NCBI GenBank assembly: GCA_902761755.1
Contig: CACWLP010000019.1
Location: forward strand, 1-33,134
Reading direction: 5' to 3'
Source: an uncultured Eubacteriales bacterium
GTDB lineage: Bacteria; Bacillota; Clostridia; Christensenellales; Aristaeellaceae
DNA: 33,134 nt
In this document: positions 25,411 to 33,134 of the stretch, piece by piece
How positions within the stretch are numbered: position 1 is the first letter of the stretch
Layout: each line of letters opens with the position of its first letter
Program-made: the position numbers and the translations under genes
The notes under the pieces: generated by a model
The model's database searches: none
Seen by the model: the letters and a program-made list of their open reading frames with translations, nothing else
Told to the model about the DNA's origin: nothing

Positions 25411-25469
25411 AGAAATGGAAAAAAGATCCCTTGCCCATCGTGTATACAGGTGAAGGAGGTGAGGCTGCC

Positions 25470-25991
25470 ATGGAACGTGCTGCGGTACCCAGCATGGTCC
25501 GGGAAGAAAGGCTGCGGCAGTGGATCGCGCAGTACGCCGAAGCGATCACCAAGGTCTGCTGGGCGTCCCTGCGGGACCGGGCCCTGGCCGAGGACGCCTG
25601 CCAGGACACCTTTCTCAAGGCCTGGAAGCACATGGATTCCTATGAACGCAAAAACATTCAGAACGACAAGGCGTGGCTCATGCGCATCGCCGTCAACACC
25701 TGCCGGGATTACCGGCGCTCAGCCTGGCAGCGCCACGTAGACGGGCACGCCAGCCTGGACCGGCTGCCGGAAATCCCCGCCGACGACAGGGAGGACCGGG
25801 CGCTGGCCCTGGATGTGATGCGGCTGCCGGACAGGCTGAAGGAGCCCGTGCTGCTTTACTATTACCAGGGCCTCACCATCCAGGAAACAGCCCGGGCATT
25901 GGCCGTTCCCCAAACCACGGTGCACCGGCGGCTGAAGAAAGCCCGGGAGCTGCTGAAAGAAAGCCTGCGGGGAGGTGACGCAGATGAATGA
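25470..25991 (+). CDS. ECF-type RNA polymerase sigma factor
   Basis: 173-residue extracytoplasmic-function sigma factor. Region 2 is at about 15-85 (LAEDACQDTFLKAWKHMDSY, then KAWLMRIAVNTCRDYRR), contacting core polymerase and the -10 box. Region 4 is at about 115-170 (LLYYYQGLTIQETARALAVP, TTVHRRLKKARELLKE), an HTH for the -35 box. The ATG at 25470 follows GGAGGTGA; an upstream in-frame TTG lacks a site. The stop overlaps the start of the next gene by eight bases, the usual layout of a sigma factor with its anti-sigma factor. It is divergent from the glycosidase operon, so control of that operon is possible but unproven. Confidence 0.92.
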   Translation: MERAAVPSMVREERLRQWIAQYAEAITKVCWASLRDRALAEDACQDTFLKAWKHMDSYERKNIQNDKAWLMRIAVNTCRDYRRSAWQRHVDGHASLDRLPEIPADDREDRALALDVMRLPDRLKEPVLLYYYQGLTIQETARALAVPQTTVHRRLKKARELLKESLRGGDADE

Positions 25992-28158
25992 CCGGATGAT
26001 CCGCGAACAGGTCGCGCGCGCGCTGGACGCTCAATTCGCCTTCGCCGCGCCCTCTCCCCAGCGGCGTGAAGAAATCTTCGGCTACGCCACAGGAGGAAAG
26101 CAAATGAAAAAAGCCTATAAATTTTCCCTGAGCCTGGCGCTGATCCTGGCGCTGGCCCTGCTCACCGTCACGGGCGCCATCGCCGCGGCGCTGCTCTCCG
26201 CCCAGGAGGTAGTGGAGCAGACCGCCGTTCCCCTGGCGAAGGAAAACGACACCGACGCCCTGGTGATCGACACCTACACCCCGGACCAGGTGGCCGCCCT
26301 GATCCGCGCCGCCAATGAAAACGGCATCACCCTGGATGAAACCACCGGCATCATGCAGGCCCTGCGCAACGGCGAAGGGTACTGGGAGGACGAGGCCGTC
26401 ATGGAGATCTGCCGGGCGGCCTTCGGCGGCCTGTTCCCGGAATGGACCATCGAGGAAAAGCACTGGTATCAGGAGATCTTCTCCCAGATGAGCGGCTATC
26501 CCCCGGAGGAGCAGGACCCCTATCCCCTGCCCGGAGAGGGCGATATGCCCATCCCGGAGGCCCGGGAAACGGCAGCGCGGCTCATTAAGGAAAAATACCC
26601 CGAAGCCGCGGCCATCGATGATCCCGCCCTCTACCGCCGCAACGAATGGTTTACGCCCGAATACGACGACGACGGAAACATGACCGGCGCTTCCTATACC
26701 TTCGATTTCATCCCCAATGTGCTGACGCTGCGGCGATACTCCGTCTACCTGGACCGCGACGGCACCTATCTGGACGACGACGTCGCCGACGCCCTGACGG
26801 AAGGCCCCTATACCGCCCCGGAACTGGTATCGGCCGTCAGCGAAACCTACCGCGCCCGCACCGGCACCCAGAGCAGCTGGAGCCAGGAGGCTTGGCACAT
26901 TTTCGGGGAATACCTGCCGGGCGCCAACCGGGAAAGCGGCTGGAGCCGCAAATACGACGCCTTCCTGCAAAGCGCCTATCCCCTGCCCGCGGAGGACGAT
27001 CTTCCGTTTGACCAGGCCCTGGAAATCGCCAGGCGGGACGCCGGATGCGAGGAGACCGGGAATGTGGAAAAGGTGCTGCTGGCAGAGGGCGAACGGCACG
27101 TCTGGAAAATCAGCTTCCAGCCCAAAGCAGACGGCGGCTGGGGCGAATGGACCACCCGGGAGATCGACGCGCAAACCGGCGAAATCCTGTACGCCGGCCC
27201 CGCCGATACCGCGCTGAACTGGAGCCTGTACGTGCCGGACGCCGTGCTGAAACAGGTGACGGAGGGCATGCTCACCCAGAAAGAAGCCGTCGCGCTGGCC
27301 GCGGACGCCCTGCGCAAAGCCCTCGGGGACGATTCGATCCCCTTTGAAGACCCGGCCTGCTTTGACCTGCTCATCCACTACAACGAAATGCGCGATAACT
27401 GGTCCGTCCGCTTCCGCACCAAGGACCTGCGCTACGGCTCCTGCATGGCCACCGTAAACGGCGCGGACCGCTCCGTCCTCCCGGGAGACGCGGAGCCCAT
27501 GGAGGCCGACGGCGACAGCCTCTACCGCCGCTGGCAGGACGTGTACGGCTACGGCGGCTGGGATCAGGATATCTGGGTGGCGTTTTCCGAAGCCCTGCAG
27601 GCGCTGGAGCCCACCGAATGGCAAAGCGTCCTGCTCAAACAAACGGTATACCTGCCCCTGACTGCGGCGAAGCTCACCCGGGACCAGGCGGTGGACATCG
27701 CGGCGAAGGCCAACGAATGGCCTGTCAGCGAGGCCACCCGGGCCACGCTCTTGGGCATGGACGGAAAACCCGTATGGAAGATCCGCCTGTCCGGCGCCGC
27801 GGAGGACTGGCTGTACGAATTGGACGGCGACACGGGCGAGATCCTCAGCAAAACCGCCTACAAGCCGGATAATTACGTTTTCGACGATCCCGTGGAAATG
27901 TACACCCTGCGCCGGGATTACGCCCCCGCGTTCCTGCAGGCGTCCGGCCCCGAATGGGCGGCCAACGTGGAGATCTGCAAGGCCTTCGCCGATATGGAAG
28001 CCGACGAGCCGGACCTGGGATTGCTGGACGAAAGCCTGTACCGCGCTGAAACGGACGGCCGCACCGTCACCTTCACCGCCCTGCAGGAAGGCCAGCCCTC
28101 CTTCCGGGTGGCATTCGGCCCGGACGGGCTGCCCGAGAAGGTGGAAAAGCTGCCCTGA
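25984..28158 (+). CDS. Membrane-anchored PepSY-like repeat protein, probable anti-sigma factor
   Basis: 724 residues: a ~40-residue cytoplasmic N-terminus (MNDRMIREQVARALDAQFAF), one membrane segment (about 45-68, SLALILALALLTVTGAIAAA) and a ~650-residue external part. The outer part repeats a PepSY-like unit: an [ALI]-A-rich helix after a DQA motif (DQALEIARRDAG, DQAVDIAAKANEW), then WKI and EIDAQTGEILY or ELDGDTGEILS. Between these lie W-rich segments (WTIEEKHWYQEIF, WSQEAWHIFGEYL). The ATG at 25984 has GGAGGTGA upstream and overlaps the sigma gene. An internal in-frame ATG at 26104 also has AGGAGG ahead and would start right at the membrane segment. The anti-sigma role is inferred from gene order and topology; the signal is unknown. 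Confidence 0.85.
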   Translation: MNDRMIREQVARALDAQFAFAAPSPQRREEIFGYATGGKQMKKAYKFSLSLALILALALLTVTGAIAAALLSAQEVVEQTAVPLAKENDTDALVIDTYTPDQVAALIRAANENGITLDETTGIMQALRNGEGYWEDEAVMEICRAAFGGLFPEWTIEEKHWYQEIFSQMSGYPPEEQDPYPLPGEGDMPIPEARETAARLIKEKYPEAAAIDDPALYRRNEWFTPEYDDDGNMTGASYTFDFIPNVLTLRRYSVYLDRDGTYLDDDVADALTEGPYTAPELVSAVSETYRARTGTQSSWSQEAWHIFGEYLPGANRESGWSRKYDAFLQSAYPLPAEDDLPFDQALEIARRDAGCEETGNVEKVLLAEGERHVWKISFQPKADGGWGEWTTREIDAQTGEILYAGPADTALNWSLYVPDAVLKQVTEGMLTQKEAVALAADALRKALGDDSIPFEDPACFDLLIHYNEMRDNWSVRFRTKDLRYGSCMATVNGADRSVLPGDAEPMEADGDSLYRRWQDVYGYGGWDQDIWVAFSEALQALEPTEWQSVLLKQTVYLPLTAAKLTRDQAVDIAAKANEWPVSEATRATLLGMDGKPVWKIRLSGAAEDWLYELDGDTGEILSKTAYKPDNYVFDDPVEMYTLRRDYAPAFLQASGPEWAANVEICKAFADMEADEPDLGLLDESLYRAETDGRTVTFTALQEGQPSFRVAFGPDGLPEKVEKLP

Positions 28159-28265: not shown

Positions 28266-28294
28266 TTGACTTTTTTCCCCGCCTTGGCTATACT
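28266..28294 (+). promoter_or_regulatory. Strong promoter ahead of the split tRNA-Ser
   Basis: TTGACT (28266-28271), 17 bases and TATACT (28289-28294). The next feature, 18 bases on, is the 5' half of a tRNA-Ser, so this is best read as the original tRNA promoter; it can also serve the intact tRNA 200 bases on by read-through. Confidence 0.75.
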
Positions 28295-28312
28295 GGTTCC
28301 GTCCCTGTCCGT

Positions 28313-28354
28313 GGAGGTGTATCGAAGTGGTCACAACGGCCCTGACTCGAAATC
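28313..28354 (+). pseudogene. 5' half of a tRNA-Ser gene, interrupted at the anticodon arm (probable attL)
   Basis: GGAGGTG (28313-28319) stands where the acceptor strand would be. The D arm and anticodon loop (CTCGAAATC) then follow, identical over 36 bases (28319-28354) to 28502-28537 of the intact tRNA-Ser. After 28354 the homology stops: there is no variable arm, T arm or matching CACCTCC strand. The intact copy has GGAGCGG/CCGCTCC instead, so this is not just a second copy of the same gene. I read it as the host tRNA cut by integration, with the 36 bases as the att core. Confidence 0.65.
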
Positions 28355-28495
28355 GTCCCGGCGATTTGGAACACCCCCTGGCGGAAATCCTTATTTTTCA
28401 AGGCTTCCAGGGCCTTGAAAAGGTTAGAACCTCTTGCTTTCTCTCCTGGTTTTCTCTCCAATTTACAGGGTGAAAATCAGGGTGGAAAAATCTTT

Positions 28496-28584
28496 GGAGC
28501 GGTATCGAAGTGGTCACAACGGCCCTGACTCGAAATCAGGTGACGGGCAACCGTCCGTGGGTTCGAATCCCACCCGCTCCGCCA
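28496..28584 (+). tRNA. tRNA-Ser (anticodon CGA)
   Basis: Acceptor GGAGCGG (28496-28502) pairs with CCGCTCC (28574-28580). The D arm is normal, and the anticodon stem CCTGA/TCAGG encloses loop CTCGAAA, anticodon CGA (28533-28535), reading UCG. A long variable arm (GACGGGCAACCGTC) as in all tRNA-Ser, the T arm GTGGGTTCGAATCCCAC, discriminator G and an encoded CCA complete the gene. No own promoter is obvious; TTGGAG directly precedes it. Its 5' half repeats the 36 bases at 28319-28354. Confidence 0.96.
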
Positions 28585-28587
28585 TTG

Positions 28588-28621
28588 ACCCGTCTGAAGC
28601 GTAGGTTTCAGGCGGGTTTTC
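28588..28621 (+). terminator. Terminator after tRNA-Ser
   Basis: ACCCGTCTGAA (28588-28598) pairs with TTCAGGCGGGT (28607-28617), one T-G pair, then TTTT. It lies four bases after the CCA end. Confidence 0.8.
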
Positions 28622-28851
28622 GCATGTTAGGAGCCATCAGAAATCGACGAGGTTCCAAATTGAGGGGATGATTTTTGGTCATGTCCTCAATCCTACGAGG
28701 GTCCTTGAGACATAAGGATTTTCTCGGTGTTATGAGCGTTTTTTGCTCTCCAAATTATTTCACCATTTTGATGCCTCTCTGAATTTTGGAGAGAAAACGC
28801 ATCCCCTGCAAACCCTTGCGTGATAAGGCTTCGCAGCACTTCATTGATTCG

Positions 28852-28889
28852 CAGGAGAGAAAAAAGCGCTCTTGATTTTTTCTCTCCTG
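28852..28889. repeat. 14-bp perfect inverted repeat downstream of the integrase gene
   Basis: CAGGAGAGAAAAAA (28852-28865) and TTTTTTCTCTCCTG (28876-28889) flank GCGCTCTTGA. It contains two of the 9-mers. It could be a terminator for the integrase gene (minus strand) or a paired integrase site. The remaining 28622-28851 stretch has no gene I can support. Confidence 0.6.
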
Positions 28890-28908
28890 GTACCTCTGGA
28901 CATTCCGG

Positions 28909-30105
28909 TTACTCCGAAAGAGGCTCAATTCCCGTTGCTTTCAGCCCCAGACCAGCCAGCATTGCTTCCGCCGAAGTGACCTTCGACTGGTAATCCAGGT
29001 GGGCGTAGATGTTAGCCGTTGTGGAGAAGTCACTGTGCCCCATCCAGTCCTGAATCTGTTTCATGGGAACGCCGTTGGCCAGCAGCATCGACGCGCAGCT
29101 ATGTCTCAAATCGTGGAATCTGATGACGCGCAGCCCGTTTTTCTTCAGGAATTTCGGAAAATATTCCGTGATGTAATCCGGGCTTGTCCGTTTCCCAAGC
29201 TGATCAACACAGATGTAATCCAGGTAGTCGGTGCAGTACGCTTTTCCACAAAGGCGGCGAAATTCTTTCTGCTCTGCCTGCTTTTTCAAAAGCAGCTCCT
29301 TGAAAACCGGCACCAGCGGCAGCGTCCGCAAGCTGGATTTTGTTTTCGCGGTGTCAGAAGCCAACTCCACCTCTTTTCCATCCACTTCCACGGTCGTGAC
29401 GGTATGGTTGACGGTAAGCGTGTTATTGTTGAAGTCAATCGCGCTCCAACGCAGCCCGATGCACTCGCTTCTTCGGAGCCCGTAAAAGGCAGCCAGCTTC
29501 ACCGGCAGCTCCAGTTCCGTTCCATCCACCAGATCGAAGAGCTTGTTAATCTCTTCCTTGTCATAGAAGGATGGCGTAAATGCGTTCTTCTTGGGGCGAT
29601 CCACCTTATCAACCGGATTCACCGGAATCAGATCTGTCTTCACAGCATATTTGAGCGCTTTGTGAAGGAGAGCGTGATAGTGTATCACGGTATTGGCTGA
29701 TACGCGATCCAGCTGCTGCAAATAGAACTCCTGGATGTCACTTGCCTGAACGCCGATCAGGGTAAGTCCTTTTTCCTCGAAGTAAGGCCGGATGGGAGAC
29801 CGAATCATCTGGCTGTAAGAAGTATACGTTGCCGGCTTAATCGTCGTTTTCGCAATTTTGAGCCACCTGTCAAGGTAGTGAACAAAGGAAATATTCACAT
29901 CCAATGGAATCTCATCGTCATCCTCTTGTTCGGGAGGAACAAACTTGCGGCGAATCTCACTCAGCATGGCTTCGGCACGCTTTTTGTTCCCGCGCACCAT
30001 CAAGCCTGTTGGAACCCATTTTGTCCTTCGCTTGCCTTTCGTGTCCTTGTAACTGAGGACAGCATAGAACTGTCCGCTTTTTTCCTGCAAATGGCCTGCT
30101 ACCAT
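28909..30105 (-). CDS. int: Tyrosine recombinase / integrase of the element
   Basis: 398-residue site-specific recombinase of the phage/Tn916 integrase type. An N-terminal arm-binding domain (about 1-60, GQFYAVLSYKDTKGKRRTKW) precedes a core-binding SAM-like domain (70-170) and the catalytic domain with R211 (FYGLRRSECIGLRW), HDLRHSCAS (H331, R334), WMGHSD (H357) and the nucleophile Y367 (TANIYAHL). All catalytic residues are present. The ATG at 30105 follows AAAGGAGG; the frame is open upstream without a better site. It is transcribed towards the tRNA-Ser, and an excisionase-like gene lies 90 bases upstream on the same strand. Confidence 0.95.
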   Translation of the reverse strand: MVAGHLQEKSGQFYAVLSYKDTKGKRRTKWVPTGLMVRGNKKRAEAMLSEIRRKFVPPEQEDDDEIPLDVNISFVHYLDRWLKIAKTTIKPATYTSYSQMIRSPIRPYFEEKGLTLIGVQASDIQEFYLQQLDRVSANTVIHYHALLHKALKYAVKTDLIPVNPVDKVDRPKKNAFTPSFYDKEEINKLFDLVDGTELELPVKLAAFYGLRRSECIGLRWSAIDFNNNTLTVNHTVTTVEVDGKEVELASDTAKTKSSLRTLPLVPVFKELLLKKQAEQKEFRRLCGKAYCTDYLDYICVDQLGKRTSPDYITEYFPKFLKKNGLRVIRFHDLRHSCASMLLANGVPMKQIQDWMGHSDFSTTANIYAHLDYQSKVTSAEAMLAGLGLKATGIEPLSE

Positions 30106-30195
30106 AATCAATGTCCTCCTTTCGGTGTAGCAGCCACCTCTGCTGATTGGCAGTGATAGCTTACACGATAATCGAACCTGGCGCAAGGCTGTCGA

Positions 30196-30423
30196 TTAGA
30201 CTTTTGATGCGGTGTTCAGAATACGCAGGTAGGTTAGAACATGAACCTTCGGGATTCTGTACATCCGTCCCACCTTCAGCGCAGCAATCGTGCCATTGCT
30301 CAAGAGCTTGTAACCCGTTTTTGTGCTGATGCCAAGCACCTCGCACAATTGATCTACGTTCAGGATGTCAGGAAAGTCCTTCAGCCTGACGTTATATTGT
30401 TTGAAATAAGCGTTGTCACTCAT
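30196..30423 (-). CDS. Excisionase-like HTH protein (MerR-type HTH_17)
   Basis: 75 residues. The core NVDQLCEVLGISTKTGYKLL followed by GTIAALKVGRMYRIPKVHV is the helix-turn-helix plus wing of the excisionase-family / HTH_17 domain, used to bend DNA and steer integrases towards excision. The ATG at 30423 (MSDNAYF) has AAGGAGG eight bases upstream. It is the gene before the integrase on the same strand, the normal place for xis. It could also be a regulator only. Confidence 0.85.
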   Translation of the reverse strand: MSDNAYFKQYNVRLKDFPDILNVDQLCEVLGISTKTGYKLLSNGTIAALKVGRMYRIPKVHVLTYLRILNTASKV

Positions 30424-30869
30424 CAGAATGTCCTCCTTCCTGACAAGCACCGGCACCAATGGTGCCTTGTACCCCCTGATACCGGTGTGTAATTAGTTTT
30501 GTTTTTTTCCGTATTTATCCCATGCCCCCGGCGGGTTTCCTCGAAAGAGGAAGCCGGGCGGTTTACAGGCTGCGGTTTGCTCACCGCATCATAGCCCCAG
30601 GATGCCGATGCTGACCGAAGCTGTCGTGCATCCCAGAGCTCCATCTCAAGTCTGGTGGATGGCCGTGAGGAAGTATCATGATCGTCCATAAAGGTCTTGG
30701 CGGGCCTGCTTCGCTTCGCAGGATCTATGCGCTGCGTGGATCGCTCTGGCTGCTGCCATCTTCGCGCCGCCGCATATTTCGCTCGCCTTATAGATCAACG
30801 TACCTGTAAACCGGCTATTCCGTTGTCAAGGTTCATAAGCGTAGTCGCTGAAACTACGGCTTCTTTTTC
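30424..30869. other. Gene-free stretch upstream of the excisionase-like gene
   Basis: 446 bases without a supported gene. It is G+C-richer than the rest of the element. It holds a GGCACC/GGTGCC hairpin (30452-30466) just upstream of the excisionase ribosome site, and a GAAA-capped hairpin with TTCCTC/GAGGAA inner and CCCGGC/GCCGGG outer pairs (about 30527-30558). An open minus-strand frame from about 30689 ends in a TGATG overlap with the excisionase start but has no ribosome site. Confidence 0.5.
30837..30866. terminator. Hairpin terminator next to the XRE gene
   Basis: CGTAGT (30840-30845) pairs with ACTACG (30853-30858), followed on the plus strand by GCTTCTTTTTCTT. It is only a few bases past the stop of the XRE gene on the minus strand, so it could end transcripts from either side. 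Confidence 0.5.
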
Positions 30870-31178
30870 TTATCTGCCTATTGGCTTTTTTTCTTCTTCC
30901 ATAACCCGTACAAGATTAGTAAGCACATCTACATAACGGTCTGAAAGAAAACTGATTTGGATGCTTCTGCGTTCATCCAAGCCCAGCAGATAATCAGATG
31001 TGACGCGGAAATACATGGCCATATCGACCAGTACATCCAAGGGTGGGGTGGCTACTGCCAATTCCCAGTTTTTTAAGCTGGTACGGCTGACACCCAAAGC
31101 GTCAGCCAAGGCATACTGGGAGATGCCTTGCAATGAACGCAGCTGTTTCAGCCTTTGGCTGAACACGCTCCGATCCAT
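30870..31178 (-). CDS. XRE-family regulator of the element
   Basis: 102 residues. An N-terminal helix-turn-helix of the Cro/CI type (FSQRLKQLRSLQGISQYALA, then LGVSRTSLKNWELAVATPPL, then LVDMAMYFRVTSDYLLG) is followed by a helical tail of about 35 residues with a charged end (VRVMEEEKKPIGR). The ATG at 31178 overlaps the stop of a 42-codon ORF by one base (TGATG), with GGGGGATG upstream. It is divergent from a second XRE gene at 31578 across a stretch with repeated words, a phage-like regulatory layout. It probably controls integration or transfer genes. Confidence 0.88.
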   Translation of the reverse strand: MDRSVFSQRLKQLRSLQGISQYALADALGVSRTSLKNWELAVATPPLDVLVDMAMYFRVTSDYLLGLDERRSIQISFLSDRYVDVLTNLVRVMEEEKKPIGR

Positions 31179-31306
31179 CAACTTGCATCCCCCCTTGCGT
31201 TACCATCGTCATTGTACTGCAAAGGATTCCTTTGTGGTATGACCAAACCAGGCCAAGTTTTGGCCCATGACATCTTCTTTTTCTCTGTAATCTTCTTTTT
31301 CTCCAT
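31178..31306 (-). CDS. Small ORF (42 residues) translationally coupled to the XRE gene
   Basis: MEKKKITEKKKMSW, then a middle part, then NDDGNARGDAS. It starts at ATG 31306 with GGAGGAG (31315-31321) eight bases upstream, and its TGA overlaps the XRE start (TGATG). The Lys-rich N-terminus and lack of known motif give no function. It could be a leader whose translation sets XRE expression, or a small partner protein. The ribosome site lies in one arm of a hairpin. Support is from the ribosome site and the coupling only. Confidence 0.55.
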   Translation of the reverse strand: MEKKKITEKKKMSWAKTWPGLVIPQRNPLQYNDDGNARGDAS

Positions 31307-31314
31307 AAAGAAAA

Positions 31315-31358
31315 CTCCTCCGAACACTTCTGTAGTCGCAAAAGTGAAATCGGAGGAG
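31315..31358 (-). promoter_or_regulatory. Hairpin enclosing the ribosome site of the small ORF
   Basis: On the minus strand CTCCTCCGA (31358-31350) pairs perfectly with TCGGAGGAG (31323-31315), with inner CACTT/AAGTG pairs. TTTTCTTT follows, so it may act as a terminator or attenuator and as a switch hiding GGAGGAG. Confidence 0.6.
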
Positions 31359-31577
31359 CGCGTGGAAATATGGAAATAATTACATAAGAGTAAACTGAAC
31401 CTATGGAATATATTGCACATTGATAAATGCGTTGACCTAATGTTTGTGCTGAAAATGGTCATACCATCGAGGCGTTATTTTCGTTCGCAATTTATGGAAT
31501 ATATTACATACCCCCATCCTTCGAGATCCATTCATAGTTTCAGTTATGTAATATAAACTACATAGGGGTGAAATATA
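31359..31577. promoter_or_regulatory. Divergent regulatory region with repeated operator-like words
   Basis: A+T-rich stretch between two XRE genes. TATGGAATATATT occurs exactly at 31402-31414 and 31493-31505, and a close form TATGGAAATAATT at 31369-31381; each is followed by a RCAYA-like end. A related TATGTAATATAAACTACATA lies near 31555, just before the second XRE gene. I could not place -10 and -35 boxes with confidence. Confidence 0.55.
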
Positions 31578-31922
31578 ATGGATGAATCCTTTGTTATATT
31601 GGGTGATGCTGTCAGGCGGGCAAGAAAACAGATGAAGATTTCACAGGAAAAGCTGGCAGAAATGATTGGTGTGGATTACAAGACCATCAATAGCATAGAA
31701 AACCATAAAGGAAACCCAACTTTTGAAGTAATATATAAACTGATCCAAACTCTCAAGCTGGATGCTCGAGAGATATTTCACCATGACCAAATATGCAACG
31801 CCCCCACCGCTTTCCATTTACAGCAGCTTTTGAGCGATTGCACAGAATACGAAGCGAAGGTATTAATGGATGTAGATCAATCCATCCTCTGCGGTTTGCG
31901 AAATCAGCAAGCGAAATCATGA
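31578..31922 (+). CDS. XRE-family regulator, divergent from the first
   Basis: 114 residues. The helix-turn-helix ILGDAVRRARKQMKISQEKL, AEMIGVDYKTINSIENHKGN, PTFEVIYKLIQTLKLDAREI covers the first ~65 residues. The ISQEKLAEMIGVDYKTINSIE pattern is typical of regulators in Firmicutes integrative elements. The C-terminal ~45 residues (FHLQQLLSDCTEYEAKVLMD) are helical and may dimerise. GGGGTGA precedes the ATG. Transcribed away from the other XRE gene, it forms with it a possible two-repressor switch. Confidence 0.9.
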   Translation: MDESFVILGDAVRRARKQMKISQEKLAEMIGVDYKTINSIENHKGNPTFEVIYKLIQTLKLDAREIFHHDQICNAPTAFHLQQLLSDCTEYEAKVLMDVDQSILCGLRNQQAKS

Positions 31923-31935
31923 TGAATATGTTGCG

Positions 31936-31977
31936 AGCCTGTATCTCAGTTTAGATAAGACACAGGCTTGTTCTTTA
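31936..31977 (+). terminator. Terminator after the second XRE gene
   Basis: AGCCTGT (31936-31942) pairs with ACAGGCT (31962-31968), with further pairs inside, then TGTTCTTTAAT. Confidence 0.65.
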
Positions 31978-31980
31978 ATC

Positions 31981-32163
31981 TTATTCATTACGATCTGTTT
32001 CTCTCTCTACAGTTACTTTTCCTGCTACATAGACGATGATAAATTCTGTTTTACACCAATGACAATAGAGCGGAAAATGAACCATTACAGTGTTTTCATA
32101 CACCTTAGCCCGCGTTCTTTTATGACATTTTGGGCAAAATAGCCATTCACCGCTTCTTCCCAT
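31981..32163 (-). CDS. Cys-rich KTR-type small protein
   Basis: 60 residues. FCPKCHKRTRAKVYENTVM followed by YCHWCKTEFII gives two CxxC pairs, a zinc-ribbon-like knuckle, with the K(R)TR word that names the Cys_rich_KTR family, common in conjugative elements and prophages of Clostridia. The start at ATG 32163 (MGRSGEWLFC) follows GGAGGAAACAACA; a longer open frame upstream lacks a site. The function of the family is not known. It is the second of two small genes on this strand. Confidence 0.8.
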   Translation of the reverse strand: MGRSGEWLFCPKCHKRTRAKVYENTVMVHFPLYCHWCKTEFIIVYVAGKVTVERETDRNE

Positions 32164-32210
32164 TGTTGTTTCCTCCTGTCCGGCACAGTGCTGCGTCGTG
32201 CGTCTAACTG

Positions 32211-32357
32211 TCAATTATTCTTCCAACAGTACCGGGCAGCGTATTCCCGCAGACGCCTGCGCAGCCCAGGATCGTAGGTGCTGATGGTGATGGGGTCGCG
32301 ACTCTGGTTGTAGAGCAGTACGGTTTCTTTTTCATACTTGGTAAGAGTATAGGACAT
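32211..32357 (-). CDS. Small mobile-element protein (48 residues)
   Basis: MSYTLTKYEKETVLLYNQSR is followed by DPITISTYDPGLRRRLREYA and ARYCWKNN. The pattern L-T-x-Y-E-K-E-T-x-x-L-Y-N followed by TYDxxLxRRL is one I know from short proteins of Firmicutes mobile elements (usually 65-70 residues). This copy stops about 20 residues early. AAAAGGAGG lies five bases before the ATG at 32357, so translation is likely. It overlaps the end of the hsdS remnant. No function is known. Confidence 0.65.
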   Translation of the reverse strand: MSYTLTKYEKETVLLYNQSRDPITISTYDPGLRRRLREYAARYCWKNN

Positions 32358-32907
32358 GAGAGCCTCCTTTTCGTGATTTTGGCTTACACTGATGAAGGGT
32401 GATAAGGGTGTCGATATTGATCAAGGCACCTGCAATTTTGCGTTGTTCTGCCACACAAGGAATCTGGATTTCATATTGCAACATCTGATTGAGATTAAGC
32501 ACTCTGTTACGACCTGCACCGCCTGGTGAGGCAAGCCATAAATGATGCCTAAACCTCTCGTCCAAAATGATGAATTTCAGGAATTGCGGATCTAATTCAT
32601 CGGACAGTGAAAACTGCGGAAAACGGTGGGAAACCAGCTTTCCAGCGTCATTTTCGTCAGTTACAGCTACAGCGTGCTCCCATCCGAAAGTAATGTTTAC
32701 GATGAACTTGTTTGCAGCCACTCTGTGCATCTGTGCGGTCTGTAATTCGTGACCCGCTGGCACATAGCTGTGAAATGTTCCTTTGGCATGGCTGCGAATA
32801 CCAAGTCGCTCATATCCTTCATGTGGAATATCAACCGGATCAGTGTAGCTGGAGAACACTTCGGATAACTTACGCTGTTCCCAAGCACATGTGTTTCCGG
32901 TTGATTT
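32332..32907 (-). pseudogene. hsdS: Truncated type I restriction specificity subunit (HsdS half)
   Basis: About 190 codons that match one half of an HsdS. They begin at AWEQRKLSEVFSSY, a very common opening of a target-recognition half in Firmicutes. The variable recognition domain follows (KFIVNITFGWEHAVAV, FPQFSLSDELDPQFLKFIIL), then the conserved LNLNQMLQYEIQIPCVAEQR and IAGALINIDTLITLHQ. After LHQ the normal coiled tail is lost and the frame runs into the small gene downstream. No start codon with a ribosome site precedes it; the other half, hsdM and hsdR are absent. It could be a silent specificity cassette or a relic. Confidence 0.75.
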
Positions 32908-32990
32908 TCTCAATATGATCTTGATAAAACATTGACAACATGATATGATGTTCTTGTCGCTGTAACAGAACGTAAGCAGGAGGAGGATCC

Positions 32991-33134
32991 ATGTCCCGCT
33001 CATACAATAAACTCTGGCATATTTTGATTGATAGAAACATGACGAAGACGCAGCTCAGAGAGGCTGCCAATATCACAACAAACGCCATGGCCAATCTCGG
33101 CAAGAATGAATCAGTTCCAGTAGAGACGCTCGAA
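32991..33134 (+). CDS. Cro/CI-type HTH regulator, cut by the window end
   Basis: First 48 codons of a short regulator: SYNKLWHILIDRNMTKTQLR, then EAANITTNAMANLGKNESVP, then VETLE. This is the HTH_26 / YozG-like Cro/CI family (usually about 70 residues), frequent in Firmicutes mobile elements. AGGAGGAGG lies five to six bases before the ATG. Upstream, TTGACA at 32932-32937 and arms GACAA and TTGTC (about 32934-32958) form a possible operator, but I see no clear -10 box. Confidence 0.85.
   Translation, partial: MSRSYNKLWHILIDRNMTKTQLREAANITTNAMANLGKNESVPVETLE

Follow-up and report, generated by a model that had tools for sequence, protein, structure and literature searches.

Clostridial integrative elements that probably split a host tRNA-Ser at its anticodon loop and carry a complete replacement

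The window, i.e., the whole stretch of 33134 bases that was analysed (the entire contig C19 of a 2.2-Mb assembly that is 73% complete), contains the left end of what is very probably an integrative element that splits a host tRNA-Ser at the anticodon loop and, in its place, brings a complete tRNA-Ser of the same anticodon; we put the probability of this reading at about 0.92. The left junction, the borne tRNA, and the integrase are seen in the window itself, and the general layout, the junctions, the empty sites, the pairing of orphan halves, and the match of anticodons were established in related loci.

In the mechanism that we propose, an integrative and probably conjugative element would recombine with the host tRNA-Ser(CGA) at its 7-bp anticodon loop, with the anticodon stem forming the inverted repeat that flanks the 7-base crossover loop. 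As the element shares only ~7-13 bp with its target, integration would break the host gene, leaving the promoter and the 5' half at the left end and moving the 3' half to the far end. Lying ~140 bp inside the left end, just before the integrase, would be a complete tRNA-Ser that shares the anticodon but has an acceptor stem of its own, and by carrying it the element would supply the tRNA that it destroys. Transcription would run from the host promoter through the half and the leader, and the borne tRNA would presumably be excised by RNase P. A later element may split the tRNA of the resident in turn, giving rise to stacked 5' halves.

Results

A Split and a Complete tRNA-Ser in the Window

The features of the window are as follows.
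28266-28294, plus strand: host tRNA promoter TTGACT-17-TATACT (10/12 consensus matches), now 5' of the orphan half
28313-28354, plus strand: orphan 5' half with acceptor GGAGGTG, from the host tRNA-Ser; the left attachment junction
28346-28352, plus strand: anticodon loop CTCGAAA of the orphan 5' half
28353-28495, plus strand: leader of 143 bp, the left arm of the element; leaders of 128-174 bp stand at the same place in 63/86 loci
28439-28446, plus strand: arm-like repeat TTCTCTCC, copy 1; related elements have the same variant at their far end too
28452-28459, plus strand: arm-like repeat TTCTCTCC, copy 2; again the variant that related elements have at their far end
28496-28584, plus strand: complete element-borne tRNA-Ser(CGA), acceptor GGAGCGG/CCGCTCC, CCA encoded (ARAGORN, Rfam)
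28587-28621, plus strand: terminator-like hairpin and T-run 3' of the borne tRNA (custom scan; omitted by the scan of a stricter tool)
28909-30186, minus strand: tyrosine integrase, likely ATG start near 30105 (PF00589 Phage_integrase, E 1.8e-26)
30196-30459, minus strand: small HTH_17 protein (PF12728, E 6.2e-11), xis-like by position
30870-33003, no strand assigned: further region with two HTH_3 proteins, a Cys_rich_KTR protein, and a protein with a partial type I S-subunit domain, the whole of which probably belongs to the element

A strong promoter followed by only the first half of a tRNA-Ser had been predicted from the window, and both are in place at 28266-28294 and 28313-28354. The half is 42 nt long, reads GGAGGTG...CTCGAAATC, and ends 2 bases past the anticodon loop. 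Also borne out were the exact recurrence of bases 28319-28354 (36 nt) at 28502-28537 and the presence there of an intact tRNA-Ser(CGA), which is the sole tRNA called by ARAGORN in the window and, at 52.5 bits, the only match to the Rfam tRNA model at the gathering threshold. Its 3' strand CCGCTCC pairs at 7/7 positions with its own GGAGCGG and, on inspection, at 5/7 with the GGAGGTG of the left half, in agreement with the predicted fit to its own acceptor.

The integrase has SAM-like N-terminal domains besides PF00589. Its residues R238, H358-R361, H384, and Y394, which we take to be the catalytic R, HxxR, H, and Y of tyrosine integrases, are invariant in an alignment of 7 sequences (the window and 6 relatives). 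Between the borne tRNA and the integrase, at 28740-28890, there are further TTTTCTCTCC-like repeats, as if a second set of arm sites were present. To the left of the site, 25431-28158 holds the genes of an ECF-type sigma factor and of a 727-aa PepSY-domain protein, the latter with a match in 26/29 genomes of the genus.

The contig stops at 33134, before any right end of the element, and no right end was found in its own 73%-complete assembly or in the genome of L081, a locus from another assembly whose integrase is 100% identical to that of the window. L081 and the window share 98.3% DNA identity over 28302-30481 and have no match to the left of 28302, i.e., outward from the half; at the other end of the L081 copy, 147 nt beside its contig end are also unmatched to the window. 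As regards the empty site of the window, homologues of the PepSY gene in L024-L029 had no tRNA within the stretch examined (L024 is the remainder of the contig of G009, the half of which lies just outside the L024 stretch). An intact GGAGGTG...CGCCTCC gene is present in G024, and its 3' half equals the G026 orphan over 56 nt, with no wider match in the flanks.

A Family of Related Loci with the Same Layout

A profile scan of genome contigs with the 7-integrase alignment gave 316 relatives, the best 80 of which were taken; these, the window itself, and 5 regions picked up through DNA similarity, G007 and G057 among them, make up 86 loci. The best 80 of 316 include members of Oscillospiraceae, Lachnospiraceae, and Christensenellaceae, many of them from rumen or gut, and a scan of viral contigs gave 7 loci. 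By script, a half, a leader of 128-174 nt, and a complete tRNA-Ser were found in 63/86 loci, all of which adjoin an integrase except G007 and G057, where there was no integrase match (the contig of G057 ends at the tRNA and that of G007 1.8 kb past it). A complete tRNA and no half were returned by script in 13/86 loci, and no complete adjacent tRNA-Ser in 10/86. Six of these 13 (L093, L095, L112, L135, L145, L156) have a half that is visible by eye or by another search, that of L112, which stays outside the 63, coming from a looser pattern; L100 and L157 were left unjudged. No half was found upstream of the tRNA by the integrase in L086, L090, L094, L113, and L155. At these five loci a complete tRNA-Ser stands behind a normal promoter with no leader either, which could reflect a deletion between two 5' halves or true elements of the kind that rebuild the 3' end.

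The acceptor stems of the half and the complete tRNA differ in 49 of the 63 loci, and L111 and L115 have a TATCGAAG-type half beside a TGTCCGAG-type complete tRNA. The borne acceptor itself pairs at 7/7 positions in 62/63 loci (G-U allowed). Half and borne tRNA agree in anticodon class in 63/63 loci, 60 with CGA and 3 with UGA, these being the only two kinds of half that the script could detect. After the acceptor, the 5' body differs between half and complete tRNA at at least 10 of ~33 positions in 12/63 loci, with the layout kept; this is a gapped count, and an ungapped count of the same difference gave 18 loci. Altered loops are seen in some borne tRNAs (TTCGAAA in 3/63, CCCGAAA in 1/63, CCTGAAA in 2/63; L084, L141, L142, L144, and others). 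Such loops would mismatch the overlap and might protect the borne gene against splitting by a later element.

Both Ends and the Empty Site in Lachnoanaerobaculum

Both ends are seen most clearly in the isolate Lachnoanaerobaculum sp. OBRC5-5, which has those of a 40-kb element on a single 2.9-Mb scaffold. The left end consists, in this order, of the half GGAGGTG...CTCGAAATC, the leader, and a GGAGCGG...CCGCTCC tRNA; at the right end, 40 kb on, the far end joins CTCGAAATCAGG...CGCCTCC. The host GGAGGTG...CGCCTCC gene is split at the anticodon loop. In 5/5 other genomes of the genus GGAGGTG...CTCGAAATCAGG...CGCCTCC is unbroken. The left flank matches that of OBRC5-5 at 98, 96, 78, and 75% over ~620 nt in four congeners and at 79% over 104 nt in L273. 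On the right, past the 3' half, the closest match is that of L269 (93% over 785 nt); L270 matches over 93 nt, L273 over 343 nt in a displaced position, and L271 and L272 in the 3' half only. A search by pattern gave one tRNA-Ser(CGA) in each of the 5 congeners, and in OBRC5-5 the borne tRNA together with the orphan 3' half. The original prediction had expected the whole host tRNA and no second gene in relatives that lack the element, and this is the situation here, in another genus; its broader proposal, that an element splits a host tRNA-Ser and carries a full replacement with its own acceptor stem, is likewise supported in relatives.

The two near-identical 5' halves in the window lie only 183 bp apart, which would also suit a decayed duplicate, the half being the relic of a host tRNA, the intact gene the host's own, and the integrase a neighbor by chance or through ordinary 3' targeting. 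We regard this explanation as scarcely credible, given that the same layout recurs in 63/86 loci, that the two acceptors differ in most of them (49/63), and that all five Lachnoanaerobaculum empty sites are without a second tRNA-Ser(CGA) by pattern.

Junctions and Pairing of Orphan Halves

In the related genomes, right ends were found as 3' halves that start at the anticodon loop, with unrelated DNA before them. What stands after the host half is the leader and not a 3' half, unlike the junction of an element that rebuilds the 3' end. The overlap of left and right junctions measures 13 bp in OBRC5-5, 9 bp in G006, and 7 bp in G018, in each case around the CTCGAAA loop. When the right ends of the 20 genomes considered below are compared with their own host halves, 8-16 of the 22 nt that precede the loop are different (13/22 in L229, 8/22 in L197). 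As foreseen, relatives have orphan 3' halves, with CGCCTCC that pairs with GGAGGTG; the 36-base segment that had been proposed as the recombination core is not found beside them, and right ends hold just the CTCGAAA loop and a few bases. We thus rejected this segment as the core and ascribe it to the likeness of two tRNA-Ser genes. A right end without the 36 bases had been named in advance as refuting the original prediction; the proposed core does fall with it, while the remainder of the reading stands.

Across 20 genomes with a readable orphan 3' half, 233/240 acceptor and anticodon stem positions are paired between that half and the host 5' half (G-U allowed), compared with 183/240 between the host half and the borne 3' half. 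When the 3' halves were shuffled among the genomes, the mean was 190.3 and the highest value 216, and 0/20000 trials reached 233. Pairing is perfect in 17/20 host-orphan pairs, the misfits being L107 (6/7), L115 (5/7), and the nested L140 (6/7 and 2/5). L084, L118, and L152, all of them among the 17, do not discriminate, because orphan and borne 3' half pair equally well there. The pairs comprise 7 from the first 16 genomes (L109 by a looser local search), 10 from 40 further genomes, 1 from 3 further genomes, and L083 and L084. Left out were G006 (half GGAGGTG, orphan CGCCTCC, contig stopping before the borne tRNA), G015 (no half), the orphan-like 3' halves in G036, G040, and G049, and L245, in which the orphan flagged by script lies beside an N run. 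Where there were multiple copies (G106, G089) the copy without a 5' half was chosen, and in G067 the farther of two identical orphans. These identical orphans, on the Faecalibacterium hattorii contig G067:C36, lie at 126045 and 144573, 18.5 kb apart on one strand, and the borne tRNA lies 3.4 kb from the nearer one; this is perhaps a short element beside a longer one.

Leader and Far End Carry the Same Repeat Variant

The leader contains the repeat TTCTCTCC or its variant TTCTCCCC, in most cases as two copies, and the repeat recurs 144-277 nt short of the far junction. The four TTCTCCCC leaders (L107, L096, L118, L109) have TTCTCCCC at the far end in 4/4 cases, and TTCTCTCC leaders with a readable far end have TTCTCTCC there in 11/11, such that leader and far end share the variant in 15/15 readable pairs; the other 5/20 far ends (L092, L101, L150, L133, L140) are without a readable repeat and are uninformative. 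We infer that the TTCTCTCC repeats are arm sites of the integrase. Over 58 loci, the Mantel correlation with integrase distance is 0.67 for the leader and -0.01 for the host half. For the borne tRNA it is weak over the same 58 loci (0.23 for the whole gene, 0.16 for its 5' 40 nt), and the bootstrap interval of the borne 5' half minus host half correlation runs from -0.006 to 0.357, zero included.

Leaders of similar length with conserved blocks could also point to a half and leader that are kept as a working RNA, be it a processed leader, a decoy, or a regulator. This we consider very unlikely: the strongest blocks are repeated DNA words common to the far end, and a conserved RNA fold was rejected, RNAalifold predicting 0 pairs on 44 aligned leader sequences. 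In a few loci (L101, L110, G007 (L060)), the acceptor strand of the host half has an apparent complement in the leader, ~25-35 nt past the loop.

Stacked Elements and Assembly Breaks

The half is preceded by the end of another leader in L099, L104, L128, L147, and G021, and the integrase by a far end joined to a 3' half in L108, L123, and L143. We read these stacks as cases in which a later element split the tRNA of an earlier one. Tandem units such as those in G021, L104, and L147, as well as integrase loci without a leader (L086, L090), would also be expected if half and leader were a separate mini-element, with att ends only, that had accreted upstream of an ordinary element that rebuilds the 3' half. 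As the whole story we rejected such accretion and hold it to be highly improbable, since in OBRC5-5 a single 40-kb element lies between the half plus leader on one side and the orphan 3' half on the other, opposite an unbroken empty site. Moreover, the clearly different bodies of 12/63 borne tRNAs are impossible to obtain from 3'-half rebuilding, and the repeat variant common to leader and far end argues for a single unit.

Contigs end within the half-leader-tRNA repeat in G004, G005, G006, G009, G019, and G027, and L114 has an N run there; counts of this locus in draft genomes are therefore probably low.

Conjugation Genes in the OBRC5-5 Element

The presence of conjugation genes was read in the OBRC5-5 element alone, which is the sole one read end to end. 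The 9 proteins tested include a relaxase (PF03432), a type IV coupling protein (PF02534), and a TraG-type P-loop ATPase (PF19044) that we read as VirB4-like; the rest are NlpC/P60, topoisomerase, ArdC-like, MutS domain I, integrase, and HTH_17 proteins. With an integrase, a relaxase, and type IV secretion genes together, it is by its predicted genes a conjugative element in its parts, and the relaxase, coupling protein, and TraG-type ATPase among the 9 proteins do not fit the identity of a temperate phage. The copy in the window, which is too short to class as conjugative, shows integrase, HTH, KTR, and S-subunit-like genes before 33134.

Proposed Expression and Use of the Borne tRNA

Promoter-like sequences that score above 95% of shuffles were found, with a wide search range, in 31/57 non-nested regions upstream of halves as opposed to 2/63 leaders. 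With a narrow range, in which the -10 had to lie within 12 nt of the start, the counts were 10/57 upstream regions and 10/63 leaders, i.e., no separation, and a first scan with other limits gave 13/57 and 4/63, respectively. Excluded from the 57 were 6 loci flagged as nested by an upstream repeat (the flag of G017 may be wrong). On the wide-range counts a promoter conserved in the leader was rejected; an outward promoter in the far end is not general either, because just 4/20 far ends exceed 95% of shuffles. As promoter-like sequences precede the half and none is conserved in the leader, reading from the host promoter would be the likeliest route for the borne tRNA. A terminator-like hairpin lies within 75 nt 3' of the borne tRNA in 59/63 loci (14/63 when shuffled), and 30/63 leaders have one, compared with 25.6 when shuffled.

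A complete tRNA-Ser(UGA), which could read UCG too, is present in 6/6 genomes examined, including those of the window and OBRC5-5, and loss of tRNA-Ser(CGA) may thus be tolerated. The layout could then be as described with the borne tRNA an inconsequential passenger, and 3/63 borne tRNAs do have a C at loop position 33, which is unusual for a tRNA. We consider this rather unlikely in view of the fully paired acceptor in all but one of the 63 borne tRNAs and of their anticodon class, which follows that of the half without exception; since the borne tRNA lies outside the modelled crossover, this match speaks for use. The borne tRNA is, we infer, used by the host cell.

Discussion

The reading of a split host tRNA-Ser with an element-borne replacement provides a route for horizontal turnover of a core translation gene, in a compact design in which the tRNA is set right behind the host's own promoter. 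It also accounts for lone half tRNA genes and for the assembly breaks at this locus. With repeated replacement, each newcomer would take over the resident promoter, break the tRNA in use, be it that of the host or of a resident element, and supply its own. We lean slightly toward the view that a widespread conjugative family keeps replacing the tRNA-Ser of its hosts in this manner, in which case the only tRNA-Ser(CGA) of many Clostridia would be horizontally acquired and repeatedly swapped. In addition, the family puts integrases with a short, defined target on offer for genetics in hard-to-handle Clostridia.

The closest known system appears to be tRNA-dependent lysogeny in temperate phages of Actinobacteria (Guerrero-Bustamante and Hatfull, 2024, PMC10865867), which, in the portion of that paper available to us, follows the same logic in phages. 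The present family differs from those phages as portrayed there in its clostridial hosts, in the conjugation genes of the one element read end to end, in the position of its tRNA, which follows the host promoter a short way inward of the left end, and in its stacking. Phage-related sequences of Sinorhizobium meliloti likewise replace a tRNA (PMC11476347), and a similar replacement is attributed to prophage Lj965 of Lactobacillus johnsonii (cited in PMC10865867); as far as the available text goes, integrated phage DNA inactivates a tRNA gene and supplies an isoacceptor in both. We liken them to the clostridial element without a comparison of att sites, and both are phages of other hosts.

Classical islands, as described in the accessible part of the Islander paper (PMC4383910), also have a tyrosine integrase at a tRNA gene and a displaced fragment that marks the end; they restore the target from island sequence, whereas the clostridial element leaves the target broken and carries a whole gene. 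Involvement of the 5' side of the tRNA is shared with elements for which the 5' portion of a tRNA gene is the recombination partner (Zhao and Williams, 2002, as cited in PMC6563490).

In the literature searched, which mostly lacked subscription papers, no report was found of tRNA replacement by conjugative elements or in Clostridia, and as far as we could find such replacement has previously been described for phages only. The elements that recombine with the 5' part of a tRNA gene reportedly restore its 5' side, whereas the clostridial element restores nothing. Tn1549/Tn916-like conjugative elements of Bacillota have the same style of integrase, a small HTH protein, and conjugation genes, and they insert at AT-rich sites and are not known to do so in a tRNA. 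With the family presented here, the replacement of a tRNA by mobile DNA would reach beyond phages to clostridial elements that have conjugation genes.
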